Below are positions 15,448-53,736 of a stretch of 64,000 nt of DNA, in pieces. The stretch lies in assembly GCF_002909255.1 (NCBI RefSeq), contig NZ_PIOB01000001.1, forward strand, positions 434,001 through 498,000, given 5' to 3'. The notes under the pieces are model-generated. The model was not told where the DNA came from. It did no database searches and saw only the letters and a program-made list of their open reading frames with translations. This DNA comes from Arenibacter hampyeongensis. GTDB taxonomy: Bacteria > Bacteroidota > Bacteroidia > Flavobacteriales > Flavobacteriaceae. The translations under genes and the position numbers were made by a program. How positions within the stretch are numbered: position 1 is the stretch's first letter; each line of letters begins with the position of its first letter.

Positions 15448-15452
15448 CCATT

Positions 15453-27665: not shown

Positions 27666-27810
27666 ATTTTATGGAATTTTGACTTTATTTGGAAAACACG
27701 ATTTATAGAAAGTACGGTTCATTATCGCCAGAGTCTAGGAGATCATTGCTCAAAGTTAGTAAGGGTATCCGTCAGAAATAGATTTTATATAAATTAATTT
27801 AAAAGCGTTT

Positions 27811-29394: not shown

Positions 29395-29565
29395 GTCTGA
29401 TCTAAACGAAATGTTGCGATAATTCAATTCCCGCCATATTGATAGAAATGAGAAAAAGAAAGGGCGAACTGAGAAATCGTATTATAAGGGTAACCCTTAG
29501 GTTTGCCCAAAGCCCAATTTCCTTTTTCATATTTATAACCCATGCTTAAAAATAAAAATTAAGAA

Positions 29566-31813: not shown

Positions 31814-31973
31814 AAATTTTTATAGTTATCGGTTTTAGGTTTTAAGCATTTTGGAATTATTTGTGTCCAATATCCCAATGAGACCTATTGTTCTAATTAG
31901 ATTTTATATTCCACAAACTATGTGGAACATTATGGCTACAATTTGTTCTAACAATAGTTCCCAGAAAGGTTTC

Positions 31974-33197: not shown

Positions 33198-33206
33198 TTT
33201 TATAAT

Positions 33207-35981: not shown

Positions 35982-36039
35982 GCTAGTTCTAATGTTTATA
36001 GTAATATATAATTAATAATGCCACATAGATAATATCGGT

Positions 36040-37401
36040 TTATCGCAATTCCAATTTAATTACGCTTACCGATTGGTCCGGTGCTTCTTTTGGCAGTTGT
36101 AGCACAGTACCATTAGCTATTTTGTTGGAACTGATTTCGGTTTGGGGTGCCAGCAATAAAGTAGCCTTTTTTAATTTAATGTTTTTATTGATAACCAATT
36201 GGCCATCCTCAGGCCAATCAAAAACATGGGCATAGACAACCCCATCCTTTTTAGTATATCTGCCCCATTCGGGCATATCGTACGGACTGGCCGTGGCGCC
36301 ATAAATTGCATTTCCGTTGGCATCGGTCCAATCCCCCATGGCCTTTAACCTTCTAATACTTTGTGCGGGAAACCTACCAAATCCATCGGGACCTATATTC
36401 AATAAAAAATTACCGCCTTTAGAAACAATATCTACCAATTTTTGAATAAGGTCTTCACTGCTTTTCCACTTGGTGTCGTCCGGTTTATATCCCCAAGTAC
36501 CGTTCATGGTCATACAAGCTTCCCAATCTGAGTCGATTCCTGTAGCCGGGATTTCTTGTTCAGGAGTACCAAAATCCCCAGCAAAATTGCCTTCCATATC
36601 CATACCTTCCATTCCCTTTCTACCTTTGTCGACCCTATTATTGATAATGGTGTTAGGCTGTAACTCCCTAATGTAACTATACATCTCCTTGCCCATTTCA
36701 GTGGTATAATCGGCAATCCAATCCCCATCAAACCAAACCACGTCTATATCCCCATAATTGGTCAACAATTCTTTTACCTGTGGTTTTAGATAGTTTTTGT
36801 AATATTCCGGAAATTCGGGATTTACCACAGTCTGGTCTTTTTGACCCGCATTGTAATTGGGGAATAGATTTCCCTGTGCCTGGGGATGGTGCCAATCTAC
36901 GATAGAATGGTACACTCCGAATTTAATACCTTGTTTTCTTGACGCTTCGGCCAACTCTTTAATAATATCACGTTTAATTGGAGCGGTGTCCATGATATCA
37001 TAGTCTGTAACTTCTGAATCCCAAAGACAAAAGCCATCATGGTGTTTGGAGGTAATTACAATATACTTCATGCCCGCATCCTTGGCCATTTTTACCCAAT
37101 CATCCGCGTTGAATAATTGGGGATCGAACATTTTTGGAAATTTTTCATACTCTTCAATGGTAAAATCCAATTTGTCCATTGCCCATTCCGCACCGCCCCC
37201 GGCAATTCGCTCTCCGCGTTCACCACCTATTATGGAGTATGCTCCCCAGTGAATGAACAATCCAAATTTGGCATCACGCCACCATTCCATCCGTTCGTCA
37301 TCCGATAATTTTTTTATGTGGGATGTATTCTGGGAATAGCCCGTGTTAAGTGCTGTCATAAATATTAGGATAACGACTATAGATTTTTTTAAGGATTTCA
37401 T
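36040..37401 (-). CDS. GH29 alpha-L-fucosidase-type glycoside hydrolase
   Basis: Starting at the ATG at 37401 gives 453 residues with a proper signal peptide (MKSLKKSIVV ... NTGYSQ). A longer open frame to 37755 exists but its first 118 codons read antisense into the transporter gene and are not protein-like. GH29 marks are FIHWGAYS, ITSKHHDGFCLWDS, and the nucleophile region DVVWFDGDW (Asp225); GGNFLLNIGPDGFG near the end is also typical. GH29 enzymes release alpha-L-fucose and some act on related sugars. It lies between the sugar porter and the lyase in the operon, which supports fucose or a fucose-like sugar in the substrate. Confidence 0.9.
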   Translation of the reverse strand: MKSLKKSIVVILIFMTALNTGYSQNTSHIKKLSDDERMEWWRDAKFGLFIHWGAYSIIGGERGERIAGGGAEWAMDKLDFTIEEYEKFPKMFDPQLFNADDWVKMAKDAGMKYIVITSKHHDGFCLWDSEVTDYDIMDTAPIKRDIIKELAEASRKQGIKFGVYHSIVDWHHPQAQGNLFPNYNAGQKDQTVVNPEFPEYYKNYLKPQVKELLTNYGDIDVVWFDGDWIADYTTEMGKEMYSYIRELQPNTIINNRVDKGRKGMEGMDMEGNFAGDFGTPEQEIPATGIDSDWEACMTMNGTWGYKPDDTKWKSSEDLIQKLVDIVSKGGNFLLNIGPDGFGRFPAQSIRRLKAMGDWTDANGNAIYGATASPYDMPEWGRYTKKDGVVYAHVFDWPEDGQLVINKNIKLKKATLLLAPQTEISSNKIANGTVLQLPKEAPDQSVSVIKLELR

Positions 37402-37424
37402 TTTCAACGGTTTAATTTTATGTA

Positions 37425-38738
37425 TTATTTCAGTATAGTTTCCTGTAGTTCTTCCAAGGTTTTTCCTTTGGTTTCCGGCATCATGAAAATCACGAACAAT
37501 AATTGTAGCACCATCATGGCTGCAAAAAACAAGAACACATATCCGGGACTGGAAAGACCTGCCATGGCCAAAGGCATAAAAAGGGTTATTAAGGCAGCTA
37601 GGACCCAATGGGTGGAACTTCCAAACGACTGCCCTTGAGCCCTTACTTCTGTTGGAAATATCTCTGATATGAACACCCAAATTACGGAGCCTTGGCCAAT
37701 GGCGTGGGCGGCTATAAACAGAAATAGGAAAATGGGGACCATTATTCCTTCCCAATCCAATAAAAAGGCCATGGCAACCAGGGATAAGGAAACAATATAT
37801 CCAAATGAGCCAATATACATCAGTGTTTTTCTACCTAATCTGTCTATTAAGTAAAGGCCTAAAAGGGTAAATACCAAATTGGTTACACCAATTCCAATAC
37901 TGCTCAATAAGGAGGCACTGGATTCCAGACCAGCAGATTCAAATATTCTAGGGGCATAGTATAGGAAAGCATTTATGCCCGAGAGTTGGTTGAAAAAAGC
38001 GATAAAAAAGGCCAAGAGTAAGGGAAATCGGTATTTTTTATCAAAGAGAGGTTTTTTCGGGTTTTGTTTATGCTCGGGTGTTGACCACAAGGCAAGGTCC
38101 ATTTCCGTACCTGTGAGCTCCAGATATTTTTCCTTTGCCTTTTCCACATCCCCTTTTTTATCCAAAAGCCATCTCGGACTTTCGGGAATGCGGCTAATGG
38201 CTATAACATAAATTAATGCCGGTAGAGCTTCTATTCCTACCATCCATCGCCACGGCTGTATTCCTACATCTTTCAATAAATAATTGGAAATAAAGGCGAT
38301 CAAGATGCCCAAAACAATGTTTAATTGGTAAAGCACTACCAGTTTTCCCCGATTTTTAGCAGGAGCAATCTCAGAAACATAGGTGGGTGCTGCCACTGTA
38401 GAGGCCCCTACTCCTAGGCCTCCCAAAAATCGGAAGAAGGAGAAAGTATAGGGGTCGGATGCAAGCCCGGAACCCAAAGCGGATATTAGATAAAGTACCC
38501 CAATCCAGAACAGGGTTTTTTTTCTCCCGAGCCCGTTGCAGGGTATGTGAGCAAATATGGCACCGATTACGGTTCCCCATAGGGCCATTGACATCACAAA
38601 GGTACCATGAAACAAATCAGATGTTTTCCATAAATTCTGTAATTGTTGGTCGGCACCGGAAATAACAACGGTATCAAAACCAAATAGAAAACCGGCCATG
38701 GCCACCACAAAGGCAGTATACAATAGTTTATTGTTCAT
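37425..38738 (-). CDS. Sugar porter of the major facilitator superfamily
   Basis: About 12 transmembrane helices in 437 residues. The sugar-porter marks include FLFGFDTVVISG in helix 1, GRKKTLFWIG after helix 2, PESPRWLLDKKG before the central loop and PTEVRAQGQSF before the C-terminal half. It should carry a monosaccharide or disaccharide through the inner membrane, most likely with protons. Its place between GH88 (17 nt) and GH29 (23 nt) suggests that it imports a sugar they release. The exact sugar is not readable from the sequence. Confidence 0.9.
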   Translation of the reverse strand: MNNKLLYTAFVVAMAGFLFGFDTVVISGADQQLQNLWKTSDLFHGTFVMSMALWGTVIGAIFAHIPCNGLGRKKTLFWIGVLYLISALGSGLASDPYTFSFFRFLGGLGVGASTVAAPTYVSEIAPAKNRGKLVVLYQLNIVLGILIAFISNYLLKDVGIQPWRWMVGIEALPALIYVIAISRIPESPRWLLDKKGDVEKAKEKYLELTGTEMDLALWSTPEHKQNPKKPLFDKKYRFPLLLAFFIAFFNQLSGINAFLYYAPRIFESAGLESSASLLSSIGIGVTNLVFTLLGLYLIDRLGRKTLMYIGSFGYIVSLSLVAMAFLLDWEGIMVPIFLFLFIAAHAIGQGSVIWVFISEIFPTEVRAQGQSFGSSTHWVLAALITLFMPLAMAGLSSPGYVFLFFAAMMVLQLLFVIFMMPETKGKTLEELQETILK

Positions 38739-38755
38739 ATGTTTGGTTTTGAACT

Positions 38756-40015
38756 TTAATCTTTTTGTTTGATAGTGGTTGGTAGAGGTTTGGTCAAAGG
38801 AATACCTGCCTTAAGCTTTTTTAACCTTAGCAATGCTTCCACGTAATAGTAATCTGCGTAGTTGATGGAATAGTCAATTTCACTGCCATTGGGTTTATGG
38901 CCTGTGGAATGCAGTAAAAAGGCAGAATTGGCATCTCCGCTTTGATAGTTTTGGGATAGTTCTGCAAGCATTTTTTCTGCTTTGTCCATGTAATTTTTAG
39001 CTAATAGTTTATCTTTTGTAAATGTAGAAAGTTCCAAAAGCGCTGATGAAACCAATGCCGCAGCCGAGGCATCCCTTGGTTCGTTGGGGATGTTGGGCGC
39101 ATTAAAATCCCAATAGGGAATAAAATCATTAGGTAGACGTTCCAAATATACTTTGGCAGTCTTATGCGCATAATCCAGATACTTGGCATCACCCGTTTCT
39201 CTGTATACCATGGTATACCCATAAATGGCCCATCCTTGTCCACGGGCCCACATACTATCGTCGGCATATCCTTGATGTGTAACCCCTTTAATTTTTTCCC
39301 CCGTTTCCCGGTCGTATACTACTACATGATACGAAGTGTAATCTGGTCTAAAATGATTTTTCATAGTTACATCGGCATGGCTCACTGCAATATCATAAAG
39401 GGATTTATCCCCTCCATTTTTTGACGCCCAGAACAAGAGTTCCAAGTTGATCATGTTGTCCATAATGGTATTGTGCTGTGGCCATTCCATATTGGGTACC
39501 TCACGGGGCCAAGAAAGGATGGTACCTACTTTTGGATTGAACAAAGTAGCCAAGGTGTCCGCGGTTTTAAGTATAATTTCCTTGTATTCAGGATTTCCGG
39601 TTAGCCTGTATCCGTTTCCAAAACTGTTGAAGACCTGAAAGCCTAGATCATGGTCCAGGGCGGGAGTAACCGAAAGAGGGGTAAGATACCTACTGAAGGC
39701 GTCAGCTTGTTCTTTCCATTTTGCATCATTGGTATTTTCATATAGATACCACAGGGTTCCTGGCCAAAATCCGCTTGTCCAGTCTTTATAATTGATAAAA
39801 CGCCATTCCTGACTTTCTGGGGCGATATTTCTCGGAATACTCTTGTTATCGTTTGGAATAAGTTTTAAGGTCTTGGTGGCCTGATGCTCGCAATATGCCA
39901 GTTGCCCATCTATATCAAAACTGGGGAAATTGCTTTTTTGAGGTTTTTTATTGCCGCAGCCAATAGCAAGGGATATTAAAAATAAGGAAGCTAAAACTTG
40001 TAATTTATTTGTCAT
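38756..40015 (-). CDS. GH88 unsaturated glucuronyl hydrolase lipoprotein
   Basis: The lipobox LAIGC (Cys20) marks a periplasmic or surface lipoprotein. GH88 residues are clear: the HDLGF segment (Asp123) and MDNMINLELL (Asp186) correspond to the two catalytic Asp of unsaturated glucuronyl hydrolases. WARGQGWAIYGY follows, as usual. The enzyme hydrates and so cleaves the 4,5-unsaturated uronic acid left by polysaccharide lyases. That makes it the direct partner of the two heparinase-like lyases here and shows that the substrate contains uronic acid. The length of 419 residues is normal. Confidence 0.92.
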   Translation of the reverse strand: MTNKLQVLASLFLISLAIGCGNKKPQKSNFPSFDIDGQLAYCEHQATKTLKLIPNDNKSIPRNIAPESQEWRFINYKDWTSGFWPGTLWYLYENTNDAKWKEQADAFSRYLTPLSVTPALDHDLGFQVFNSFGNGYRLTGNPEYKEIILKTADTLATLFNPKVGTILSWPREVPNMEWPQHNTIMDNMINLELLFWASKNGGDKSLYDIAVSHADVTMKNHFRPDYTSYHVVVYDRETGEKIKGVTHQGYADDSMWARGQGWAIYGYTMVYRETGDAKYLDYAHKTAKVYLERLPNDFIPYWDFNAPNIPNEPRDASAAALVSSALLELSTFTKDKLLAKNYMDKAEKMLAELSQNYQSGDANSAFLLHSTGHKPNGSEIDYSINYADYYYVEALLRLKKLKAGIPLTKPLPTTIKQKD

Positions 40016-40125: not shown

Positions 40126-41337
40126 TTATTCTTTTATTAATACTTCTAAAGGGTTGGCAATAATTTTGGCTTGTTGTGAGAGTATGTTATCCCAGTCTTC
40201 AACGTTTGAAATCTGTCCGCTTTTTGCCCAGGAAAACCCAGCATAATAAGTCAAACTACCTTTGGGTTTGGCGATGACCAACAAATTGCTTTGATCTGTT
40301 ATTTTGCTTTCGCGCACAAAGGCTGTATCTACGACCGAAGTGTCAATTACAATACCTTCGCCCAAATAGGTGCCGTCCATGGTCTCCCAATAACGGAACC
40401 AACCCTCCTTTTGGTTGAGTTTGGCTTCCCCTTCGTTTTCATGAAGAGTGACGCCTATTGCAATATTGGGGACTTCTTTTTCAGGTGATAAAACAATTTC
40501 AAATTTTGAAAAGTTGCTTCCTAGGTCCAAACTTATTCTTTTGGTTTCCCTCAGGCCATATTCGCTCCAAGGGGCATAATCCAGTTCAAATACTGTACGA
40601 AGAGGGCCATCTGCTATGGTCCTGGCTTCGGTAAAATTTTGGGAAACATATAGGCTGTCGTTTTTATAGATGCCGATTCCTCCCGTACCCCGACTTGCGC
40701 CCACATGGTAGGGGTCGTATCCTTCTCCGTGATCTATGTGGTAGTAACCGGGTGTTTTTAAGTGTTCGGAATACCACTTATTAATTACTGACTGTTTGGT
40801 TCGTTTTAGCCAAAGATCAATTCCACTGGAAAGCGTACTGCCCGGTACACCTTCCAAAGCCTCTTTCTGACCAGCTGGGCCGTAGGTGCGGAAGGCCACT
40901 TTGTCGTTTTCCCAGGTATAATCGTCCGTCCGCTCAGGTACCAATCGTGAATATGCAACAACATCAGATTCTGGGACCATTTTGGTACTATCCAAGGTAA
41001 TTATGTATTTGGATACTGAATTGGCAGCCACTTCGGCCTCAAACAATAATTCATCCTCAGTGCCATCTTGATCGTAATCGATCCATTGGGTTCTCTGATA
41101 GTCATTGGAATCTTCTTTACGTATTCTAAGGTGTTCCTTTTTTTCGTTTTCCAGAAAATTTTTCAATTTTTGGGTGGATAATGAAACCACTTCGGTTCGG
41201 GGAATATTGAGCCCATTTGTGACCTGTAAAGTCAATTTTTCTTTTTCAGTTGGATTATTACAGGAAACGGCTACCATAGCTACCAACAAATAGCCCTTTA
41301 TCAATATTGTTCCAATGCTTAATTTCATATATTTCAT
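40126..41337 (-). CDS. DUF4861 lipoprotein, possible oligosaccharide dehydratase
   Basis: First gene of the operon under box A. The 403-residue protein has a lipobox (VAVSCNN) and DUF4861 features: WIDYDQDGTEDELLFEAE, a FRTYGPAG segment, GYYHIDHGEGYDPYHVGASRG and WSEYGLRETKRISLDLGS. I recall that a DUF4861 protein of a marine ulvan locus was described as an oligosaccharide dehydratase acting with lyases and GH88/GH105 enzymes; I cannot verify this here. The gene context fits such a role. The conserved HIDHGEGYDPYH stretch would be the place to look for catalytic residues. A second Met three codons later is an alternative start. Confidence 0.75.
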   Translation of the reverse strand: MKYMKLSIGTILIKGYLLVAMVAVSCNNPTEKEKLTLQVTNGLNIPRTEVVSLSTQKLKNFLENEKKEHLRIRKEDSNDYQRTQWIDYDQDGTEDELLFEAEVAANSVSKYIITLDSTKMVPESDVVAYSRLVPERTDDYTWENDKVAFRTYGPAGQKEALEGVPGSTLSSGIDLWLKRTKQSVINKWYSEHLKTPGYYHIDHGEGYDPYHVGASRGTGGIGIYKNDSLYVSQNFTEARTIADGPLRTVFELDYAPWSEYGLRETKRISLDLGSNFSKFEIVLSPEKEVPNIAIGVTLHENEGEAKLNQKEGWFRYWETMDGTYLGEGIVIDTSVVDTAFVRESKITDQSNLLVIAKPKGSLTYYAGFSWAKSGQISNVEDWDNILSQQAKIIANPLEVLIKE

Positions 41338-41443: not shown

Positions 41444-41503
41444 CAAGATTAGCCAGAATGTGAATTGGATAACATAAAATATAGTTCAAAGGGTATAAAT
41501 TAT
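41444..41503 (-). promoter_or_regulatory. Box A: activator box plus -7 element of the DUF4861-GH88-GH29-lyase operon
   Basis: Read toward the gene: ATAATTTA, TACCCTTTGAA, two bases, ATATTTTA (41503 down to 41475), then 23 nt and the -7 element TAATCTTG (41451-41444). The half-sites start 21 bp apart, which is two helical turns. The 42-bp segment 41473-41514 matches 48162-48203 at 39 positions. The start codon follows at 41337. The remaining part of the 362-bp spacer (41338-41699) shows nothing else. Confidence 0.85.
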
Positions 41504-41699
41504 GATTCTTTATGGGGTCCTTTGATAAACTTTATGGCCATTTCGCCCCTATTTACAAAACAGTGACCCTTTTTGGGAAACTACCTGCTCTTTTTTTGTA
41601 CTTACGCCATTTTTTTTGACTTTAAAGAAACCATTCCTATTGCTTGCAAAAGGGACAGCAATTTCAAGTGGGATATTTTACTCATCGGGTTAATTTTGA

Positions 41700-43685
41700 T
41701 TATAACTTAGTGATATGTACAACAAAACCATTGTTGCTTTTCAGGTCTATGTTTAATTTTGAACTGTTTGTGACTTCAATTTCTTCAATTTTAACTTGAG
41801 TTCTGGTTTTAACCGCTTCATCATCTGTATACACTTTGGCTTCATATGTAGTACCAGACTCTAAAAATGAAAAATTCAGTTCTACTTGCCGTGCGGTTTT
41901 GCCATTGATGCCTCCCACAAACCAATCGTTTCCTTTTCTCCGGGCTATCACACCAATTTCTCCAATTTCAGCTTGAAATACCTTTGTTTCGTCCCAAGTG
42001 GTTGGCACATTATTGAAGAACTCCAACTCCGGCTCATTTCCAATAGTCTTGGTATCGCCCCAAAGCCCATCGTCTTTAACCGGGGCTGCCGGAGCTTTAT
42101 CGTACCAGTATAAAAACTGCAGCGGACTAAAAATGCATACCGTTTTCGCTAATTGAGATGCGTGCGAGCCCATTTTATCGACACGTGTATTAAAATAGCA
42201 CACCGTGTTATCGGCTGCTCCTGCCAACATTCTGGTAAACATAGTAATTAACGTATGTTCATTGGGTACGGTTTCCTCGTCGCCGCGAATACCTTCTTGG
42301 GTCAGCAGGTTGGGATAGGTTCTAGAAAATCCCGTGGGTCTATATTCATCGTGCACATCTACAACCATTTCAAACTCGGCCGCTTTTTTTATGGCTTCAT
42401 GCATCCAGGTAGTTGCATCTTGGTCTCCCACCCGCACAAAACCAAATTTAATCCCGGAAACGCCCCATTCTTTAAACAATGGTAATATCTCGTCCAATTG
42501 TTTTTCCAAAGCTCTACGGTTTACATATAGCATAACCTTAACGCCGTTTTCTTTGGCGTACTTACAAATAGCAACAATATCAAAAGGACCTTTGGAACGT
42601 TTGGGGTCTAAAGTAACCGTTGTGGCATCGGAAGCATTGTCCATCTCGTTGCCATACCAACCGGCATCAAAATGCACATATTGCATATTATGGCTGGCTA
42701 CAAAATCGATGGCTGCGAAACCGCCTTGAGTGGTTAAGGTGCTTTCACGAAGTACCTTTCCAGGGGTAATCCATGATTCGTCTTCAATTTCCGTAGGAGG
42801 ATTTAAATTTTGAATTATATAATTATTTTCAAGTAATTGTCCATAACTACTGCCGATCATGACTACACGCCATGGTGATTGAAAAGGTAGCTTTTTATGC
42901 ACCATAGCGCCTTCAATTTTACTTTCGCCAATCACAGCTCCCGTTATGGTGTCTTGTTTTTGCTCCCCTGTTTTACCATCAGGCGAAGACACTATACTGT
43001 ATTTGGATGACTTGCCTTTATTAAAACTCAATCGGCCATAATCTACCAATCCTGCTTCCGCTAAGGCAATTTTTACACTATCACCAATTTCAATCAACAA
43101 TGGACGGTCTGCCCCTTCTTGTAAATCCGTTATGGGAATTTTTCTGTATTCCCCTTGCGCCGTAAGTACTCCTTTTTCACGTTTTGGGGTGGACCAAACC
43201 GGAAAATCTTCAGAAAAATTGTAGTGAACATTTTCACTTAAACCTATTTCTTCCAATCCCTTTTGCTCAGGAATTTCATAAGCGAAAGCTATCCCTTCAT
43301 CGTAAGCTCTTGCTATTATATTGACTTTCGCCTCACCCTGTCTTAAATGTATTTTTGTTTGATTGTAATGATTTGGAATGGTACTCAATTCATTAAACCT
43401 TGAATTCCAAATAGCGTTTTCCGAAGTATGTTCTATTTTTTCTACAGAGACTTTTCCTATAAAATGCAATTCTTCTGAAAGTAATTCCAAAACTGAGGTT
43501 TGAATAATTTTCTTATTATCATAATAAACCGAAAAAGTAAGGTCGTTTTGATTTTGATTGTCCAAGAACTCTATTTTTTTAGTTCCGTCCGGTGAGGTCA
43601 ATGCAATGACTTCTGTTTGTTTACAACTACTGAAACTTAATAATAGCAAGAGTGCTACCCTACACTTTTTTAAAAATAGGTTCAT
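41700..43685 (-). CDS. GH97 alpha-glycosidase lipoprotein
   Basis: A 661-residue protein with a lipobox (LLSFSSCK). The family segments are SPDGTKKIEF at the N-terminus, YVHFDAGWYG, then VDVHDEYRPTGFSRTYPNLLTQEG in pieces, and GADNTVCYFN. GH97 includes inverting alpha-glucosidases (SusB type) and retaining alpha-galactosidases. In retaining members I recall the nucleophile Asp in a K-x-D-F motif; here that place reads GIKFGF, so the Asp is missing and an inverting mechanism with catalytic Glu residues is more likely. It closes the three-gene operon of box B, 4 nt after the lyase. Confidence 0.9.
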   Translation of the reverse strand: MNLFLKKCRVALLLLLSFSSCKQTEVIALTSPDGTKKIEFLDNQNQNDLTFSVYYDNKKIIQTSVLELLSEELHFIGKVSVEKIEHTSENAIWNSRFNELSTIPNHYNQTKIHLRQGEAKVNIIARAYDEGIAFAYEIPEQKGLEEIGLSENVHYNFSEDFPVWSTPKREKGVLTAQGEYRKIPITDLQEGADRPLLIEIGDSVKIALAEAGLVDYGRLSFNKGKSSKYSIVSSPDGKTGEQKQDTITGAVIGESKIEGAMVHKKLPFQSPWRVVMIGSSYGQLLENNYIIQNLNPPTEIEDESWITPGKVLRESTLTTQGGFAAIDFVASHNMQYVHFDAGWYGNEMDNASDATTVTLDPKRSKGPFDIVAICKYAKENGVKVMLYVNRRALEKQLDEILPLFKEWGVSGIKFGFVRVGDQDATTWMHEAIKKAAEFEMVVDVHDEYRPTGFSRTYPNLLTQEGIRGDEETVPNEHTLITMFTRMLAGAADNTVCYFNTRVDKMGSHASQLAKTVCIFSPLQFLYWYDKAPAAPVKDDGLWGDTKTIGNEPELEFFNNVPTTWDETKVFQAEIGEIGVIARRKGNDWFVGGINGKTARQVELNFSFLESGTTYEAKVYTDDEAVKTRTQVKIEEIEVTNSSKLNIDLKSNNGFVVHITKL

Positions 43686-43689
43686 TAAT

Positions 43690-46503
43690 TTATTGTTTTA
43701 GTTCAATTGAAATATTTTGAAAATTTGTTGGTGGTACTTTAAACTGTACTACTTTTTCACCGTTTATATTCCTTCTTCCGCCTCGCAACTCTTTAAAACC
43801 GAAATTTAGAACCACTTCGCCTTCTTTATAATTATCGGGTACGGTCAATAAAAGTGCGTCGTTACAAGTTAACTTTAATTGCTGCCCTGTAACCAAGGTG
43901 GCCGAGCTCGAGTTTTTCCCTAGTATTTCAATGGTATAACCATCAAAACCCATTTCTTTTCCAGCCCCAATAAAAAGTGTTGCCGAATTGCCATCTTGGG
44001 TCAACACCCCAAAAGTTCCTGTAAATTCAATTGATTTATGTTGATACGAATCATAGACCTCGGAAGAAAACACATAATCCGTTCTATCTGTTTTACTATC
44101 GATTTGTAGTCCTACAAAATTTGGCTTATCATTAGAGACAGCAAAAGGTTTTACCGCTTTGATGGTTGCTGGTTCTTTGGTAGTAGAAGGCTCGAAAACG
44201 GCAACAAAAGGACTTTTCCAAGCTTCGCCATATTGCCTAAGCACGGTGGTCAGCAAGGGTGCTTTCTCTATTTTTTCTGGAAGTATGTTTCTGAAGGCCT
44301 CGGAATGGGGCGATTTTACCTTAAAAAGTTCGCGGTTTTCATTCCCGTTCATCCACATATTCATCTTTATGTTCTCCTCGTTGATAGATAAATTGTATGT
44401 TGCCTTAAACGGACTATCTATTCTTGTGGATGACTCATCAAACAAATAATCATATGCTTTTATGTTGCCCAATTTTGAGTTTAATTTTGATGATGGCTTT
44501 AATGTTATTGGTTGATTATCTGCTGTTGTGAAGTGTAATTCTTGCCCCAAATTATGGTAGAAATAGTCGTGATAATCAGCATTATTGGCTTTGGTTCTAG
44601 ATCTGAAAATATCAATATAGTAGCCCGTCTTCTCCCCTGTCCTAACAATAGCCATTACCCGGTTTTGATCAGATTTGGTACTGGGTTCGTTGAAATAAAG
44701 ATTGGAAAAGCCGATATAAGGGTAGTACCCTGTTTTCCTTTCGCTCTTTGGGTATAGGTCATTCACCTGAAAGGGGTAATAGCTCCGCATTTTTTCGTAT
44801 TGCGATTTTCCATTTACGGAAACCGTGTTGTGGGCAGGAAATTGGGAATAGTATTCGCGATAGTCGGGCTGAAAATAACTGGAGCCCCTACCGCCTTCAG
44901 GTCCCAGGATATAGCCTTTGCCATAAAGTTCCATGGCCATACCGTTGGAGTGCGCATGGTTGCCCAAGGATGCTACCTGGGATATCATTAGGCCGTGTTC
45001 GGCGTCGTGGCCGTTTCGCATGGCCAGCCAACTAACATTAGGAGCATAAAAGGTTTGGGTCATAAAATCATCTTGCTTTGCAGCGGCGATGCCCGTATCC
45101 AGCAATACTTCCGTATTAAATAGAAAATCAAAAAACGGATCTTTTCTCCTTTTTTCCTTCAGCAAGTCCTGCTTGCCGTTGAGCATATACATCAAGGCAG
45201 TAAATTTTTCCTCTTGCTGGGATTTACCAAACATTTGGGCATTGGCCACTAGATCTATAATGGGTTCTGATTCCAAGGTTCCATAGTGCGAGTCGCCAAA
45301 GGCCACTATATGTTTGTTGGGGAACAAATATTGTGGCATGACCTCCACTGCTTTTGGAATTATTGACATGGCCGGAATAATATCTACCCCAACGGCTTCT
45401 TGGATTATCCTTGCCATATGGGTATAGCCTTTGGCAACACTTAAGGCATAGCCGGCACTTTCATTCCAAACTCCATTATCCTGATCGTAACCATAGGCCA
45501 AAACATCGGCAACCGACCATTGTCTGGCTTCTGTCTCGTTAAATACGCGATGCAAGTAGTATTGACAGCCCTTACCGTCTTCATAATCCTTATCATCATT
45601 CAAAGCCAGGGCCAGTTGTATTACAAAATTTGCCTGATGGAGGTTCCAGTTATTATCGGGAACCCCATTTTTTATGATTATTTCAGCCAATTTTTTTAGA
45701 GACCCCGTATATATGGAAACCATAGGCTTTTTCTTCTCCTGAATATATTCATAGAGAAATCCATAGGTTTCCGCCAGTTCGTCTACAATGTTTTCTTTGA
45801 TGACCTGGAAAGATGTGAGACCAATGATTCGCTGTACATTCCCATGCTGAAGATCTACAACCTCTTTCCTGTAATACAACCCCTGCATGTACACATCAAA
45901 GAGATGGGCCGCTAATTGGGCATAATCTTCATCGCGTTCAATAAAGTACACGATGGCCGCATTGCGGGCTATTTTCATGATGTTCTCATTGGTGTTTTCT
46001 ATGATCCTTCCCGTTTTGGATGGGGGCACCCATTCCCAATCATTTGTATTTTTGTTTTGTAAATACAAGCCTCTTTCGTCCTCCAAATAGGGTTTTATAT
46101 CCTGTAGCTCGGGAGATTTATAGGCCGTAACATAATCTCTCTGCCCTGTAAACCTTACAGTAGGTACCGGGGCACGACCTGTGGCGTGGGAATATAATTC
46201 CCCCTCCACGAACACATCGGTGGCATGCGATTTCCAATACATTTGAAAACGGGAAGACAACCACTCCGGATTCTTCTTATATTGGTCCACATACTTTATT
46301 AGTCCACTTTTAAATGCCGTATAGGCCGACTTAATTTCTTCTGAATTTTCAATTTTCTGTAGGATGTTGTCCTTGTTTAAATGCGGGACCAACATTCGGG
46401 GATGCGCCCTTTCTATGGAATCGGGAAAAAGGAATTGTGCAAATGCCCAATCACAATTACATAGGAAGACGATTGTCGCAAAAACAAAAATTTTATTTCT
46501 CAT
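43690..46503 (-). CDS. Heparinase II/III-like polysaccharide lyase (paralogue 2)
   Basis: Start chosen at the ATG at 46503, which gives a clean signal peptide (MRNKIFVFATIVFLCNCDWAF, about 23 residues); an upstream Met 11 codons earlier would overlap the sulfatase gene. The protein has 937 residues and the same architecture as the 33207-35981 lyase. Shared segments include SKTGRI, GVPDNNWNLHQA, GNHAHSNGMAMELYGKGY, and EYYSQFPAHNTV. The two enzymes differ along their whole length, so the duplication is old and they probably cut different linkages or chain regions. It is preceded by a sulfatase (5 nt) and followed by GH97 (4 nt). Confidence 0.82.
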   Translation of the reverse strand: MRNKIFVFATIVFLCNCDWAFAQFLFPDSIERAHPRMLVPHLNKDNILQKIENSEEIKSAYTAFKSGLIKYVDQYKKNPEWLSSRFQMYWKSHATDVFVEGELYSHATGRAPVPTVRFTGQRDYVTAYKSPELQDIKPYLEDERGLYLQNKNTNDWEWVPPSKTGRIIENTNENIMKIARNAAIVYFIERDEDYAQLAAHLFDVYMQGLYYRKEVVDLQHGNVQRIIGLTSFQVIKENIVDELAETYGFLYEYIQEKKKPMVSIYTGSLKKLAEIIIKNGVPDNNWNLHQANFVIQLALALNDDKDYEDGKGCQYYLHRVFNETEARQWSVADVLAYGYDQDNGVWNESAGYALSVAKGYTHMARIIQEAVGVDIIPAMSIIPKAVEVMPQYLFPNKHIVAFGDSHYGTLESEPIIDLVANAQMFGKSQQEEKFTALMYMLNGKQDLLKEKRRKDPFFDFLFNTEVLLDTGIAAAKQDDFMTQTFYAPNVSWLAMRNGHDAEHGLMISQVASLGNHAHSNGMAMELYGKGYILGPEGGRGSSYFQPDYREYYSQFPAHNTVSVNGKSQYEKMRSYYPFQVNDLYPKSERKTGYYPYIGFSNLYFNEPSTKSDQNRVMAIVRTGEKTGYYIDIFRSRTKANNADYHDYFYHNLGQELHFTTADNQPITLKPSSKLNSKLGNIKAYDYLFDESSTRIDSPFKATYNLSINEENIKMNMWMNGNENRELFKVKSPHSEAFRNILPEKIEKAPLLTTVLRQYGEAWKSPFVAVFEPSTTKEPATIKAVKPFAVSNDKPNFVGLQIDSKTDRTDYVFSSEVYDSYQHKSIEFTGTFGVLTQDGNSATLFIGAGKEMGFDGYTIEILGKNSSSATLVTGQQLKLTCNDALLLTVPDNYKEGEVVLNFGFKELRGGRRNINGEKVVQFKVPPTNFQNISIELKQ

Positions 46504-46508
46504 ATATT

Positions 46509-48005
46509 TTATTTGCTGTCCTGCTTCCTTTCCCAAATGTGACTATCGTTTAAAAGGGCCTTATATTCCTGGCGAAGCTCTTTTTTCAGCCGTTCAAGAA
46601 CCTCAGGATGTTTTGTTGAAAGGTCCTGCGTTTCCGCGATATCTTGCTTTAGGTTATACAGGACAAAATCGGTAAGTGTGGCATTTTTCACCAAAGCCTC
46701 GTTGCCGCGATGTATATTTAGGATTTTAGGGAGATACCCATCTTCGTTCTTTAGTCGGGCCATTATTTTCCAATCACCACTGCGCATGGCGATTACATGT
46801 TGGTTGAGTGCATTGTAAAAACCCCATAGCAAGGGTTTGCTTCGTGCAACAGTTCCCGTGTTTAAAAATGATGTGATCGATTGACCATTCAATTCCTTCT
46901 TTGGTAAACCGGCTCTGGCCAATTCCGAAAAAGTGGGTAGAAAATCCAAAGCGGACACTACTGCATCCGAAGTTCCGATATAGGTCTCTTTGCCCAACCA
47001 ATTTATAATACAGGGTACTCGAAAACCGGCTTCGCTGGTCCATAATTTCATTCCTTTTAAATTGCCGGGGGAACCATAGGAACGTTTTGCCCGGTTATAC
47101 CTCAACAGGGTTTCAGGGCCGTTGTCCGAAGTAAATACTACAAGGGTGTTTTTATCCAAGCCATTATTTTTTAAATAGGCCATTAATCTGCCTACAGCAA
47201 TATCTACGTTTTCCACGTTTGCGAAATATTCCGCTTCTTCAACCGTATCAGTAAATTCAAGGTATTTTTCTACCAAGGCTTCCGGTGATGCGATAGGTTC
47301 GTGGGGCTCATGAAAGGCAACCTCCAGAAAGAAAGGATTGTCTCCCTCTTTTTTGTCGAGCCAATGTTTAGCCTCATCAACGATAAGCTGACTGCTAAAT
47401 CCTTCCAATTTGCCCACCTGGGCCCCATTACGGACAAAGTTCTTTGGATCTTTATGACTGGGAGATGCATTGTTATGGGTAGCAAACCAGTGCTGGAAAC
47501 CAAAGTGGTCCGGTTGTGGCTGTTCTTCGGAATTGAACAAAGAACTGCCGTGCCACTTACCTACCAAACAAGTGCTATATCCAGCAGAATTAAGTAGCTG
47601 TGGAATGGTTTCCTCATCGGCTTGCAAATGAACCAGATCCTTTAAATCGTCACTTTCCTTATGACCGCCAACAATAAAATCGTACAAGCCTGCCCTATTC
47701 GGGCTTCTACCCGTTAATAACCCTACCCTTGAAGGGGAACATACAGGAGCGGCGGAATAAAAATTGGTAAGCTTTATTCCAGTCTCGGCCAATTTATCAA
47801 GGTTGGGTGTTTTAATAACGGGGTGGCCATAGGAGGCAAGGTCTCCATAACCTAGATCGTCGCAAAGCAGTACAATAATGTTGGGTCGGGACTTGTCAAC
47901 CACCTTCACGGAATTGGGGGTAGATTTGCACGATGTTACTATCAGGCAACATATCCCCAAAACAAATACAAAAACTCTCATATAATAAAGTTTAAATTTC
48001 TCCAT
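46509..48005 (-). CDS. Sulfatase lipoprotein (formylglycine-dependent), first gene of box B operon
   Basis: Lipobox LIVTSCKS (Cys26) and sulfatase signature CSPSR starting at Cys89, preceded by LCDDLGYGDLASYG and followed by LLTGRSPNRAGL. Further active-site parts are GKWHGS and TSDNGPE. The length of 498 residues is normal. The tight gaps to the lyase and GH97 genes show one transcript, started from the box B promoter 120 nt upstream. Desulfation is often needed before a lyase can act, which would explain the pairing. A second Met at codon 9 is an alternative start. Confidence 0.93.
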   Translation of the reverse strand: MEKFKLYYMRVFVFVLGICCLIVTSCKSTPNSVKVVDKSRPNIIVLLCDDLGYGDLASYGHPVIKTPNLDKLAETGIKLTNFYSAAPVCSPSRVGLLTGRSPNRAGLYDFIVGGHKESDDLKDLVHLQADEETIPQLLNSAGYSTCLVGKWHGSSLFNSEEQPQPDHFGFQHWFATHNNASPSHKDPKNFVRNGAQVGKLEGFSSQLIVDEAKHWLDKKEGDNPFFLEVAFHEPHEPIASPEALVEKYLEFTDTVEEAEYFANVENVDIAVGRLMAYLKNNGLDKNTLVVFTSDNGPETLLRYNRAKRSYGSPGNLKGMKLWTSEAGFRVPCIINWLGKETYIGTSDAVVSALDFLPTFSELARAGLPKKELNGQSITSFLNTGTVARSKPLLWGFYNALNQHVIAMRSGDWKIMARLKNEDGYLPKILNIHRGNEALVKNATLTDFVLYNLKQDIAETQDLSTKHPEVLERLKKELRQEYKALLNDSHIWERKQDSK

Positions 48006-48132
48006 AGTTGGAAGCCTCGTATTTCATTTTTCTTTGGCAGTAACTAATGGTGCAAAAAGCAAAATTCCGTTGTTTAAGGCATATTATTTCTACAGTGTTG
48101 AGTTCATAATAAAACTGGACTTTCCTGTATTA

Positions 48133-48192
48133 CAATTTTAGTTAGAGTTTTATTAAGGAAGCATAAAGTATGGTTCAAAGGGTATAAATTAT
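48133..48192 (-). promoter_or_regulatory. Box B: activator box plus -7 element of the sulfatase-lyase-GH97 operon
   Basis: Read toward the gene: ATAATTTA, TACCCTTTGAA, two bases, ATACTTTA (48192 down to 48164), then 23 nt and the -7 element TAAAATTG (48140-48133). Spacing is identical to boxes A and C. The sulfatase start codon is at 48005. No TTG is kept at the -33 position, as expected for an activator-dependent promoter. Confidence 0.85.
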
Positions 48193-48511
48193 GATTCCTT
48201 ATGCACCTATTTGTCCGCTAGGTGGGCCTTTCTACAAGATTAAAGAATTATTCTTCCATTTACTTACCAATATTCAGTATCCTTAAATACGGCTTAAAAT
48301 ATAAGTTTTCCAATCCTAAAGATTCTTCGGGAACACCAATAAAATCCACACTATTGGTACTGGGGTACAATATGTGATTTGTTAAGTGCATTTTTAAATG
48401 CTGATCAAAGGTTGATTTTGGGGACACTTTTAAATTACAGAAATGGGGGTGATTTTACACTAATGAACGCTTCAGGGTAATGATTTTGCCATTTTAGGCG
48501 GTAAAGGAGTG

Positions 48512-48571
48512 ATAATTTATACCCTTTGAATCATAATTTAAACCTTGGACCTAGAATTCTTTTTAACATTG
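48512..48571 (+). promoter_or_regulatory. Box C: activator box plus -7 element of susC-susD
   Basis: ATAATTTA (48512-48519), TACCCTTTGAA, two bases and ATAATTTA (48533-48540) form a direct repeat with a 21-bp period. After 23 nt comes TAACATTG (48564-48571). A TTG at 48545-48547 could serve as -33 element with a 16-nt spacer. Transcription would start near 48578, giving a leader of about 87 nt before the susC ATG. Boxes B and C face away from each other in the 659-bp spacer 48006-48664. Confidence 0.85.
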
Positions 48572-48664: not shown

Positions 48665-51600
48665 ATGATTACGGAAAAAAACAAACAATTTAGTTTAAAG
48701 TACGTTACCGGATTTATGGTAATAGTAGGGTTATTGCTCGGTGGATCAACTGGGTTAATGGCAGCCGGCACAAATAGTGTTTTGGGAGTGCCAATTTTAG
48801 AATTGGAAATGGATCAGGAGTTGACTATCACCGGTACGGTGACCAGTTCCGAAGACGGGATGCCAATTCCGGCGGTCAATGTAATAGTAAAGGGTACCAA
48901 TAGTGGTACTACCTCCGATTTTGATGGAAATTACGCAATTACCGTTCCCTCGGGCAATAGTGTACTTGTGTTTTCCTCCATGGGTTATGCTACCAAAGAA
49001 ATTGTGGTAGGGTCCAATAGGGTAATAAACATATCATTGGATACCGATGTAAGTGCTCTTGATGAGGTAGTGGTAGTAGGTTATGGTTCGGCAAAAAAGG
49101 AAACGCTAACTGGTTCTATTGAACAGGTTAAAGCTGAAGCTTTTGAAGATTTGGCAGTAGGTAGTCCAGCTTTGGCACTACAGGGTAGAACTCCTGGTCT
49201 GGTTGTTACTCGTACATCTTCAAGACCAGGAGACGAAGGTGTTAATTTTCTTATTAGAGGTGCCTCTTCTATAAATGGAATAGATCCTCTTATTGTTATA
49301 GATGGTATTCCGGCAATAAATTCATCCTCTTTTAATGATATGAACCCAAATGATATTGAAAGCATAAGTGTTTTAAAAGGTGGTTCTGCATCTGTATACG
49401 GTTCTCGTGCCGCTGGTGGGGTAATTTTGGTAACCACTAAAAAAGGAAAAGGAGATGTTAAGGTCGATATTAGTACCATAACCCGTATGGGTACCATAGG
49501 GATTCGTCCACCATCACCAACGATGTCTCAATATGGACAACTATTTGCAGCTGCAGCTCGTGAAGATTTAGCTTCTGGAAAACCACCACGTTATTTCTTT
49601 TGGAATGACCTTGAAACTGTAGACAGAATCGCTTCAGGAGAGGAAGGATATTATGATTTACCTATAAATGGAAATATATGGTTGGGTAATGCTCCTAGAT
49701 TTGATGAAATGTTTGGCAACTCTTACTCTAGCCAGCACAATATAAGTGTATCCGGAGGTACTGAAAAAAGTAATTTCCGTATTTCAGCAGGCTATGATGA
49801 AAATGTCGGTGGTTTGAAAGTAGCGGATGATAGTGCCGATAGATATAATTTCTCCATAAATTATGGTGTTGATATTAGTGATAAGCTAAGTTTAAATACC
49901 AATATCAATTATTTACATAATAAGTTTTCAGGACCAACGTCTGGTTTGGCCAGGGAAGCAGCTACATGGGATGCACCTTTATTCCCTACCTATAACCCTG
50001 ATGGACAATATTACGCCAATTTTGGTGGTGTTAATATTACAGGTGATAGAAACGCAATAGCGCAAGTTAAAGATGGAGGCCGAGAAAATAAAGCTGTTGA
50101 GCAGTTTAAAATAGCTGCACAGGCAACCTATAAATTTACGGACAATTTAAATTTTACGGGATCTTATGCCATAAGTAGGCAAAACAGCGAATATCAAGCA
50201 TATGCGGTTTCAGTTCCTCTTTATAGTTGGGACGGAGGATTCTCCAATAATATAAATAATACAAGTTATATCCAGGAAGGAACTGGGCCAGATAACAATG
50301 ACGGTAACATTACCTATAAGAACTATAAAGGGGCTTTAAATTACACAGATAGCTTTGGTGACCATAATATTTCTGGATTATTAGCCATAGAAGGAGAGAA
50401 AAATGAACTAAATGAGTACAATGTTAGGAGAAATGGCTTTGTTGATTATGGTGTGTACGATTTAAATTTAGGAGCCACAGATCAACTTGTGACAACCTCT
50501 GGAGGAGGTAACACATGGGGATTTTTTGGTTATATCGGACGTATAAATTATGATTATAAAGGGAAATATCTATTGGAATTCCAAGGCAGAAGGGATGGAT
50601 CTTCAAGGTTTGCAGATGGCGCTAAATGGTCTAACTACGGCAGTGTATCCGGCGGTTGGGTCTTAAGTGCGGAAGAATTTCTTAAAGACAGTGATGTCGT
50701 ATCATTTTTAAAAATAAGAGGTGGTTATGGTGAATTAGGTAGTACTTCCGGTATTGGTAATTTTGGGTATTTATCAACAGTTGGCTTTGGTACTACTGTT
50801 TTTGGCGAAACAAATGCAAATCAACAAGCAACTTCAAGAGCCAGTAGTTTATTTAGTAGTACTACAACATGGGAACGTATTGTTTCAAAAGAAATTGGTT
50901 TGGACTTTAGATTATTTAATAACAAGGTATTCGGTTCATTGGACCTTTATCAAAAAGATAATGTAGGGATGCTCGTTAGAGGGATTACGCCAGATGTGCT
51001 TGGAACGGCAACTCCATTTACCAATATAGGTACTTTAGAGACCAAAGGTTGGGAAGCAATGTTAGGTTGGCAGGGTAAAGTTGGTGATTTGGACTTCACT
51101 ATAAGTGCAAATATGAGTGATTCTAGAAATGAAATTACAGAATATGATGGAGCTCAAACAATTTTTGAAAACCTAAATGATACAGATAGATCTAGAAACA
51201 TTTTAGGAAAACCAATTAACTCGTTTTATTTATGGGAAACGGATGGTTATTTTGATTCTCAGGCCCAAGTTGACGCCTATTATGCAAGTCTTGACCCAGG
51301 AGGCATATTGCCATCACAAAGCTCAAACGATGCTTTGCGTCCTGGAGATATGATTGTTGTAGATTCCAATGGTGATGGGAGTCTTGATAATGATGATTTA
51401 ACGTACCAAGGAGATGCTGCTCCCCATTATGTTTACGGACTAAATTTTGATATAAAATACAAGAATTTTGATGTAAGTGCATTTTTTCAAGGCGCTCTAG
51501 ATCATCAAATATATAGGGAAGGTTATTTTGCACAACCTTTTCAGGCAGAATGGCAGAACCAATCCAATACATGGTTAGGCAGAACATGGACTGAGGATAA

Positions 51601-51910
51601 CCGCAATGCAGAGTTTCCTAGGTTAACTACCCAACGCGGGCTATCTGCTTGGAACTATAGAAGTAAGGACCATATTTTACAAAATAATAGATATGTTAGA
51701 TTAAAATCCCTTATTGTGGGCTATAATTTTAAAGGATTACAAATAGGAAATACACCCATTAATACAGTACGTATTTATTTTTCAGGAAATGATTTGTTTG
51801 AGTCTACAAGCGTAAAAGATGGTTATGACCCTGAATTTCAGCGTAGTTCAAATAACAGTGCATATCCATTCATGCGTACATGGGCCTTGGGTTTAAAAGT
51901 GTCGCTGTAA
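48665..51910 (+). CDS. SusC-type TonB-dependent outer-membrane transporter
   Basis: The 1081-residue protein has an N-terminal signal region, a carboxypeptidase-regulatory-like domain (about 55-125, starting ITGTVTSSEDGMPIPAVNV), the TonB-box-like LDEVVVVGYG near 132-141, a plug domain with IRGASSINGIDPLIVIDG, and a 22-strand barrel ending in an aromatic-rich WALGLKVSL. It imports oligosaccharides that the SusD lipoprotein next door captures, driven by TonB. The ATG at 48665 is preceded by a short out-of-frame start at 48654 that stops after four codons. The carboxypeptidase-like domain and length are normal for flavobacterial SusC. Confidence 0.95.
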   Translation: MITEKNKQFSLKYVTGFMVIVGLLLGGSTGLMAAGTNSVLGVPILELEMDQELTITGTVTSSEDGMPIPAVNVIVKGTNSGTTSDFDGNYAITVPSGNSVLVFSSMGYATKEIVVGSNRVINISLDTDVSALDEVVVVGYGSAKKETLTGSIEQVKAEAFEDLAVGSPALALQGRTPGLVVTRTSSRPGDEGVNFLIRGASSINGIDPLIVIDGIPAINSSSFNDMNPNDIESISVLKGGSASVYGSRAAGGVILVTTKKGKGDVKVDISTITRMGTIGIRPPSPTMSQYGQLFAAAAREDLASGKPPRYFFWNDLETVDRIASGEEGYYDLPINGNIWLGNAPRFDEMFGNSYSSQHNISVSGGTEKSNFRISAGYDENVGGLKVADDSADRYNFSINYGVDISDKLSLNTNINYLHNKFSGPTSGLAREAATWDAPLFPTYNPDGQYYANFGGVNITGDRNAIAQVKDGGRENKAVEQFKIAAQATYKFTDNLNFTGSYAISRQNSEYQAYAVSVPLYSWDGGFSNNINNTSYIQEGTGPDNNDGNITYKNYKGALNYTDSFGDHNISGLLAIEGEKNELNEYNVRRNGFVDYGVYDLNLGATDQLVTTSGGGNTWGFFGYIGRINYDYKGKYLLEFQGRRDGSSRFADGAKWSNYGSVSGGWVLSAEEFLKDSDVVSFLKIRGGYGELGSTSGIGNFGYLSTVGFGTTVFGETNANQQATSRASSLFSSTTTWERIVSKEIGLDFRLFNNKVFGSLDLYQKDNVGMLVRGITPDVLGTATPFTNIGTLETKGWEAMLGWQGKVGDLDFTISANMSDSRNEITEYDGAQTIFENLNDTDRSRNILGKPINSFYLWETDGYFDSQAQVDAYYASLDPGGILPSQSSNDALRPGDMIVVDSNGDGSLDNDDLTYQGDAAPHYVYGLNFDIKYKNFDVSAFFQGALDHQIYREGYFAQPFQAEWQNQSNTWLGRTWTEDNRNAEFPRLTTQRGLSAWNYRSKDHILQNNRYVRLKSLIVGYNFKGLQIGNTPINTVRIYFSGNDLFESTSVKDGYDPEFQRSSNNSAYPFMRTWALGLKVSL

Positions 51911-51951
51911 GGTATTGTAGCTATTTAATATTTAAATTAAAAAACATTCAA

Positions 51952-53736
51952 ATGAAAAAAGTAATATATAAAGTTTTACCATGTATTATGGTACTCTTTG
52001 CATCATGTGCAGACGAATTTATAGATTTAACACCACCAGCATCAATAACGGACGAAGTTTATTATACGGAAGCTGAGCATTTTTTAACGGGCTCCAACAG
52101 GTTTTATACTAACCTAATAGGGTGGGGAGACCAAGGTATTTATGCAGATCACGGTTCCGATTTGGTCGGTTATACTGAAGACGGTGGGATGCAGGAATAT
52201 AGTAGGGGAGACACCCAGGCACCGGAGACCGATGCTTATTATTCCAATGCTTATTCGGCTATTAGAGACATGAACCTTTTACTTGCAAGAGCTGAAGCTT
52301 ATGATGGAGAAGGAAGCATAGGAGAATATGTGGCAGCAACTAAATTTCATAGGGCTTGGCAGTATTTCTTTTTGGTACAACGTTTTGGAGGTGTTACTTT
52401 GGTAACCGAACCTCTAGATGTTGATTCTGAAGAATTATATGGACCGCGCAATAGTAGATATGAAGTGGTTGCCCAAATTTTAGCAGATCTGGATGATGCT
52501 ATAGCCGGGTTACCTACAGAACAGGAAATTAGTTCTTCTGATAAAGGTAAGATTAGTAAATGGGCTGCCATGGCATTTAAAGCGGAAGTTTTATTACATG
52601 AAGCAACTTGGATGAAATATGTTGGTGACAGTACGGATGGTGATGGCTTAAGTACTGGAGCTGGAAGTGCTGGATACGATACAGGTAAAATAAATACTTA
52701 TTTACAGGAAGTTGCCACTTTAACGAAAACGGTTATGGATCAAGGCGGTTATGAGCTTTGGAATAATAACGATGTTCTTGATAATTTGAGTTCAAATTTC
52801 TTATTTAACCTGGAAGATGGTGGATCCAATCCAGGTGGATTGGACAAGGCGTCAAATAAAGAGTTCATTTTTTATAATAAATACGATTTTACTTTTAGAC
52901 AAGCTGGCACACTAGTAAGTCACGTTTTTGAAGGAAGAGTAAAACCCAGTAGAAAGATGATGGATATGTTTTTATGTGATGACGGACTACCAATAGATCA
53001 GTCATTAAAATTTATGGGATATGCAAATACGGAGGATGAGTTCCAAAACAGGGATTTAAGAATGAGGGCTTATTTTACCTATCATAAAAATCTTGGTGAG
53101 ATTCCTGAAACTGGAGACGTGCTTTTAAATGGAACAAATAATTTCGGCTACTTCAATTCTAAGTTCATGAGTTGGAACTGGGGAACCGATATTGCTTATA
53201 GAGCCACAACGACTGAAGCCTATGATATGCCTTTTTTACGACTGGCAGAAGTGTATTTAATGTATGCTGAAGCTTTGTACGAGTTAAACGGAAGTTTAAC
53301 TGACGCTGAAATGAATGAATCTATCAATTTAGTTAAAGCTAGGGCTGGATTACCGCCTATAAGCAATGTTTTCTTAACGGCTAACGGCATGGATATAGGT
53401 ACAGAAATTCGTAGAGAACGTACCATTGAACTTTATGCGGAAAGCGCAACAAGATTTAACGATTTAAAAAGATGGGGCATTGCCGAAGAAGAATTAGGTG
53501 AAACCATTTACGGCGCAGTTATAGAGGGTACTGCATATGAAGGAAACACGGCCTTATATAATCCGGCTGCCTATGGTTTTGGAGAAGCAACCACCACAAC
53601 AGGTGTTGGCGAAAGAAGATGTCTCATAGTACAGCCATCTTCTATTCGTAACTTTACCAGAGATAATTACTTATTCCCTCTACCTACATCCCAGACGGGT
53701 TTAAATGATAATTTGCTTCAAAATCCCGGGTACTAA
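51952..53736 (+). CDS. SusD-type glycan-binding lipoprotein
   Basis: The start at 51952 (594 residues) gives a typical lipoprotein signal, MKKVIYKVLPCIMVLFASC, with Cys19 as lipid anchor; the frame is open further upstream but that part overlaps susC. The protein shows the SusD/RagB helical layout: YYTEAEHFLTGSNRFYTNL, then AIRDMNLLL, KFHRAWQYFFLVQRFGGV, and near the end LRLAEVYLMYAEALY and IRRERTIELYAE. SusD sits on the outer face of SusC and acts as a lid that binds the glycan. The gap to susC is 41 nt and a terminator follows, so susC and susD form a closed two-gene operon. Confidence 0.95.
   Translation: MKKVIYKVLPCIMVLFASCADEFIDLTPPASITDEVYYTEAEHFLTGSNRFYTNLIGWGDQGIYADHGSDLVGYTEDGGMQEYSRGDTQAPETDAYYSNAYSAIRDMNLLLARAEAYDGEGSIGEYVAATKFHRAWQYFFLVQRFGGVTLVTEPLDVDSEELYGPRNSRYEVVAQILADLDDAIAGLPTEQEISSSDKGKISKWAAMAFKAEVLLHEATWMKYVGDSTDGDGLSTGAGSAGYDTGKINTYLQEVATLTKTVMDQGGYELWNNNDVLDNLSSNFLFNLEDGGSNPGGLDKASNKEFIFYNKYDFTFRQAGTLVSHVFEGRVKPSRKMMDMFLCDDGLPIDQSLKFMGYANTEDEFQNRDLRMRAYFTYHKNLGEIPETGDVLLNGTNNFGYFNSKFMSWNWGTDIAYRATTTEAYDMPFLRLAEVYLMYAEALYELNGSLTDAEMNESINLVKARAGLPPISNVFLTANGMDIGTEIRRERTIELYAESATRFNDLKRWGIAEEELGETIYGAVIEGTAYEGNTALYNPAAYGFGEATTTTGVGERRCLIVQPSSIRNFTRDNYLFPLPTSQTGLNDNLLQNPGY

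Follow-up and report, generated by a model that had tools for sequence, protein, structure and literature searches.

Three putative operators of a hybrid two-component regulator, each at a fixed distance from a -7-like element, in a polysaccharide locus of Arenibacter hampyeongensis

The 64,000-nt stretch of Arenibacter hampyeongensis DNA analysed here (contig NZ_PIOB01000001.1, positions 434,001 to 498,000; called the window) carries a polysaccharide locus with a gene for a hybrid two-component system (HTCS) regulator and three copies of a box, which an earlier reading of the sequence (the original prediction) had taken for the binding site of this regulator. The regulator gene (53873–58051, minus strand) is located beside susC and susD, and its product combines sensor, kinase, receiver and AraC-type helix-turn-helix in one polypeptide (propeller sensor, Y_Y_Y, HisKA 853–916, HATPase 967–1087, receiver 1139–1249, HTH_18 1306–1384). 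Each box points to its own gene, as had been claimed. The DUF4861 gene (40126–41337, minus) is the first behind operator 1; direction and spacing suggest that its operon continues through 31079–40015 (minus), with GH88, a sugar transporter, GH29, a Uly1040-like protein (33207–35981), GHL15 and DUF6250. Operator 2 precedes a run composed of a sulfatase gene (46509–48005, minus), a gene for a heparinase II/III-like protein which matches the PL40 ulvan lyase Uly1040 (43690–46536, minus; PDB 9vtk, E 6.5e-36) and a GH97 gene (41700–43685, minus). The targets behind operator 3 are susC, for a SusC/RagA TonB-linked outer membrane protein (48665–51910, plus), and susD (51880–53736, plus), whose overlap suggests a common operon.

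The original prediction had described three identical boxes with half-sites 21 bp apart and a TAAnnTTG element 23 nt beyond the box end. All three are exact copies, located and oriented as predicted, and both distances are correct for each of them. Operator 1 (41474–41508, minus) has its distal half-site at 41508–41495 and the proximal one, 21 bp away, at 41487–41474, and scores 48.5 bits in the weight matrix described below. Operator 2 (48163–48197, minus; 51.9 bits) has half-sites at 48197–48184 and 48176–48163, and operator 3 (48507–48541, plus; 51.7 bits) at 48507–48520 and 48528–48541. The corresponding -7-like elements, each 23 nt from the box end, are TAATCTTG (41444–41451, minus), TAAAATTG (48133–48140, minus) and TAACATTG (48564–48571, plus); from their ends to the start codons there are 106 nt (DUF4861 gene), 127 nt (sulfatase gene) and 93 nt (susC). 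In a scan of the window for the box with up to 3 mismatches, 3 matches were observed against 0.00 expected, and none of 100 shuffles reached 3. The same search in the whole genome (5,431,642 bases, 28 contigs) returned these 3 and no further copy, with 0 in the backwards-read control. When the 23-nt distance and TAAnnTTG were added to the box, the same 3 were found without mismatch and no other within 3 mismatches, again with an empty control.

To describe the element beyond these copies, we built a position weight matrix from 23 training sites that deviate from a consensus at no more than 7 positions; they lie in the window and in seven orthologue neighbourhoods. Sites were present in 7 of these first 7 neighbourhoods; the reversed control gave 1 at 8 mismatches and 10 at 9. 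The matrix revealed no fourth site of at least 10 bits in the window. Over a set of 79 distinct sites of at least 17 bits, which includes the 23 training sites, the repeated unit is GAAYnATAATTTAT at box positions -5 to 8 and again at 16 to 29. No variation is seen in any of the 79 sites at positions 1, 5, 6 and 7 (first half) or at positions 22 and 26 (second half). Stringent half-site pairs are 21 bp apart in 33 of 41 cases, the next commonest spacing being 18 bp (3 pairs). The spacing given for the previously proposed unit ATANTTTA was thus right and the unit itself too short, the true one being longer and starting 5 bp upstream of the earlier box. Similarly, the centre described as common to the boxes, TACCCTTTGAA, belongs to the half-sites at both ends, while its middle (positions 10–14) varies outside the genus and is spacer.

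We then compared the distribution of the box with that of the regulator. Among 397 genomes of the family, 20 hold regulator orthologues (21 genes, 53–100% identity; next relatives at most 38%). A composite pattern of 60 bases, covering box and promoter, occurs with at most 1 mismatch in all 20 of these genomes and in none of the 377 others; comparison with related loci strongly supports the prediction. At exactly 2 mismatches it occurs once each in 10 of the 377 genomes lacking an orthologue, against 9 in all in the backwards-read control. Within the genus, 4 of 18 genomes hold the orthologue; the same 4 and 0 of the other 14 have sites at up to 1 mismatch, and 7 further genomes without orthologue have matches at 2–3 mismatches. 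The box pattern as originally written, with up to 3 mismatches, gave 24 matches in 19 of the 397 genomes against 6 in the backwards-read control. Seven of these matches, one each in L074–L078, L083 and L088, are probably due to chance, with only weak matches to window proteins nearby: HTCS-like stretches of 25–31% identity (L074, L075, L076, L083) and, in L076, also SusC (29%), SusD (25%) and sulfatase (33%). No match to window proteins was found near the stray box in L077, L078 and L088. Five of the 7 stray loci reach 14 bits in the matrix, and in 0 of these 5 is a -7 element present at 23 nt.

In the 20 genomes, 83 of 97 composite matches lie within 150 kb of the orthologue. Taking as the gene behind a site the longest open reading frame (ORF) starting within 900 nt, the 79 sites precede SusC (26), GH88-like (18), sulfatase (7), DUF4861 (4) and Uly1040-like (2) genes, and GH29, transporter, GH97 and regulator genes once each; 17 genes are unmatched to window proteins and 1 site has no ORF. 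The box follows the regulator instead of the target genes, because it stands before susC genes only about 40% identical to that of the window (genomes G001 and G011), before genes matching none of the window proteins used in the comparison (G002), and before operons whose distance from the single orthologue detected in the genome is about 2.3 Mb (G335) or 0.6 Mb (G121). In G321, G323, G173, G348 and G383, matches are spread over about 80–135 kb near the regulator, several of them at 2 mismatches; part of these may be due to chance, and regulons possibly span more than 100 kb. In Flavobacterium ajazii (L219), a site at 9714 (plus), with its -7 element at 23 nt, lies before the orthologous regulator gene, which suggests that this regulator is autoregulated. 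In G335 (L073), one susC has two sites in front of it, at 15409 and 16015 (plus), about 700 and 100 nt away; each has its -7 element at 23 nt, and together they could form a double promoter.

The matrix was further applied to held-out DNA, 17 groups of stretches (661 kb) outside the training set, of which 8 had been found by the earlier pattern and 9 by regulator position alone. Forty sites of at least 14 bits were obtained, compared to 0 in the same DNA reversed, and 16 of the 17 groups carry at least one. TAnnnTTG stands at exactly 23 nt in 36 of the 40. In the 9 regulator-chosen groups there are 17 sites, and the -7 element is at 23 nt for 14. In named genomes fetched by regulator alone (Maribacter, Tamlana and Flavobacterium), sites were found at 8/8 orthologue loci (21 sites, 17 at 23 nt). 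No site was detected in the neighbourhoods of 13 paralogous regulators (35–38% identity) nor in the 1.28 Mb of DNA around 72 more distant relatives.

The regulator shows a parallel conservation. Two stretches are taken to be the base-reading helices on the basis of the general AraC fold, not of a solved structure of the regulator. Across 30 orthologues (50–100% identity), the window's regulator among them, they hardly vary: G1313-R-S-Q-[LF]-Y-R-K-I and N1362-S-T-A-Y-F. In 111 distinct relatives below 45% identity these helices differ, with for example G1313 in 2%, T1364 in 2% and A1365 in 7%; L139–L151 and L280–L291 were left out of this comparison. The closest solved chains by sequence are PDB 12aw (receiver and helix-turn-helix) and 4a2l (sensor), the latter presumably the sensor of BT4663. 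The sequence comparison strongly supports the proposed assignment of the box, and we consider it very likely that the three boxes are operators of the regulator at 53873–58051. The further claim that the box defines its regulon holds as well, except for four genes at 24611–30975 which lack it.

There is a small chance that another DNA-binding protein, of one-component AraC-type or other, binds the box and has been co-inherited with the HTCS. Such a protein would produce the same co-occurrence of box and HTCS, and some boxes in G335 and G121 are indeed far from the orthologue. However, Pfam reveals no further DNA-binding regulator in the other 16 of the 17 proteins scanned between 24611 and 58051, the recognition helices of the HTCS are conserved as strongly as the box, and the 21-bp tandem form is that predicted for HTCSs (PMC3878776).

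The position of the promoter is an independent result because the -7 element is not part of the matrix. TAnnnTTG stands exactly 23 nt past the box in 69/79 sites, and the next offset, 22, accounts for 2. The -7 consensus of the primary sigma factor in Bacteroidota is given as TAnnTTTG (PMC7366714, PMC9723704). No conserved -33 TTTG was found at the sites, where the proximal half-site ends in its place; F. johnsoniae likewise yielded no such motif (PMC7366714). In Flavobacterium psychrophilum the -7 box has been mapped at -12 to -5 (PMC9723704), and on this basis we predict transcription starts at 41439, 48128 and 48576 for operators 1, 2 and 3, respectively. The 5' ends predicted earlier (41437, 48126 and 48578) differ from these by 2 nt at most. 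With the same placement the distal half-site would lie at about -69 to -56 and the proximal one at about -48 to -35, which is class II activator geometry. Outside any ORF of at least 100 aa, counting both strands, are 78 of the 79 sites; in the exception, L122, the box lies within a 433-aa frame which probably begins upstream of the true start.

With respect to the expected start the site occupies -69 to -35, an upstream position that favours an activator. This position speaks against a regulator that binds the box yet represses in the absence of ligand, which we also hold to be improbable. Repression of its own locus has been reported for one HTCS departing from the S/CHIP consensus (PMC11253607); here, CHIP or SHIP, the motif of phosphorylation-gated HTCSs, is present in all 30 orthologues, that of the window included. 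It is more improbable still that the box is a promoter part read by an alternative sigma factor, with no activator site. The spacing between box and -7 element is as constant as between two promoter hexamers (69/79), but the box, with its two similar halves separated by two helical turns, is a tandem repeat of 35 bp and far longer than a -33 hexamer, its presence tracks an AraC-type regulator, and the -7 element is near the primary sigma type TAnnTTTG (PMC7366714, PMC9723704). That the three boxes are recent duplication copies without regulatory role, as their common spacer within the genus might suggest, can be practically dismissed, since the flanks of the three copies differ and sites from other genera keep the half-sites and the 23-nt distance but not the spacer, a comparison strongly against this explanation.

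Several observations weigh against the assignment of the boxes as operators of the regulator with a fixed promoter distance. When the composite pattern was drawn up, sites in many of the 20 genomes were already known, and the compared genomes are related and not independent. In G335 and G383, a distance of over 150 kb separates the orthologue from the matches with at most 1 mismatch, and no site was found in the orthologue stretch at the end of contig 9 of G323. In the window, the regulator's own gene has no box, nor do the four plus-strand genes at 24611–30975 (esterase-like, SASA and two sulfatases). TAnnnTTG at 23 nt is missing from 10 of the 79 sites, of which 2 read TAnnTTGY at the same offset, the motif SM5 in F. 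psychrophilum (PMC9723704). Finally, the -7 element departs from TAnnTTTG at one position, the first T of TTTG being mostly A (30/40 sites).

What we infer for operator binding, activation, ligand and transcription starts is the following. The periplasmic propeller of a membrane-bound dimer would sense an oligosaccharide from a polysaccharide that is sulfated and probably contains uronic acids, and phosphorylation of the receiver would release the AraC-type DNA-binding domains. Two of these would then occupy the two GAAYnATAATTTAT half-sites in tandem and, as 21 bp make two turns, on the same face of the helix. The dimer would span the region from about -69 to -35, its promoter-near half lying beside or over the place of a -33 element, and recruit RNA polymerase to the TAAnATTG -7 element at fixed distance. 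SusCD, the sulfatase-lyase-GH97 operon and the DUF4861-GH88-transporter operon would thus be switched on together.

In E. coli, AraC bound at araI1-I2 is a class II activator; its half-sites are arranged in tandem with a 21-bp period, and the one nearer the promoter adjoins the -35 region. The operators described here share with araI1-I2 the 21-bp tandem and the placement of the proximal half-site, and would share the class II type of activation, while AraC itself, unlike the HTCS, is a soluble one-component regulator acting on a sigma-70 promoter.

HTCSs are a major class of regulators for polysaccharide use in Bacteroides (PMC11253607). This kind of operator is already known, direct repeats averaging 21 bp having been predicted for 16 of 36 B. 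thetaiotaomicron HTCSs (Ravcheev et al. 2013, PMC3878776). The Bacteroides operators resemble those of the window in the AraC-type output, in the direct repeat about 21 bp apart and in their placement before susCD and enzyme operons of the neighbouring polysaccharide utilization locus, sometimes also before a distant operon. The present case differs in belonging to a Flavobacteriaceae regulator group with its own half-site and a fixed 23 nt to the -7 element, a distance on which the consulted passages of that study are silent. The fused kinase, receiver and AraC-type output with S/CHIP motif are also those described for BT4663 and BT4124 (PMC11253607). Output fragments of HTCSs of this type bind susC-promoter DNA in gel shifts (same source); the ligands given in PMC3878776, heparin for BT4663 and rhamnogalacturonan for BT4124, differ from that proposed for the regulator here. 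No operator-to--7 distance is announced in titles or abstracts of the literature found on HTCS binding sites and promoters. As far as literature searches show, three things are new: the operator of this Flavobacteriaceae group, the rigid way in which it is coupled to the core promoter, and the regulon as found in the genomes sampled. The operator is read precisely enough that a 60-base pattern, with at most 1 mismatch, marks exactly the 20 of 397 genomes holding the regulator, and it supplies a binding probe, three predicted transcription starts and a means to delimit very large polysaccharide loci.

Does the arrangement extend to other HTCSs? In 53 paralogue loci, where a general 21-bp rule was tried and not retained, periods of 19–22 bp are only modestly enriched at 9 or more of 14 matches (of 223 candidates, 18, 18, 18 and 19, compared to 5 to 14 for the remaining periods), and no clear 21-bp peak appears at 11 or 12 of 14. 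At 45 susC promoters beside other regulators (125 loci), the periods that stand out most are 21 bp (8 promoters at 11 or more of 14 matches) and 22 bp (6 promoters), with no other period exceeding 4. No common distance to a -7 element was found at these 45 promoters, and the 23-nt rule is therefore claimed for the present regulator group only. Tentatively, one could imagine that the operator replaces the -33 element, a dimer locked 23 nt from the -7 element supplying the usual -33 contacts, that one operator drives regulons of perhaps more than 100 kb as a single switch, and that HTCS promoters in general may obey the rule, each group with half-sites of its own. If this last point were true, regulons could be read from sequence alone.

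Concerning the glycan, the locus encodes two Uly1040-like proteins, GH88 and sulfatases, as an ulvan locus may do, and a GH29 unexplained by ulvan. The resemblance of two proteins to the PL40 ulvan lyase Uly1040 (PMC12915356) suggests, with low confidence, ulvan or a similar sulfated uronate polymer. One of them, the 924-aa protein at 33207–35981 (minus), belongs to no Pfam family and has the PL40 ulvan lyase Uly1040 as its sole PDB match (E 1.3e-29); it is probably a second lyase of Uly1040 type beside the separate protein at 43690–46536. A literature search pairing DUF4861 with 'polysaccharide utilization' returned no paper.

Directly beside the polysaccharide locus, 13768–23930 encodes a relaxase, a Fic protein, an IrrE-like peptidase, a Schlafen/AlbA_2 protein and a tyrosine recombinase, and the locus seems to abut an integrated mobile element. 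The region 2426–13590 (minus) carries genes for the restriction, methylase and specificity subunits of type I restriction-modification together with PifA/QatA-like and PtuA / type II restriction model matches, and could be a defence island.

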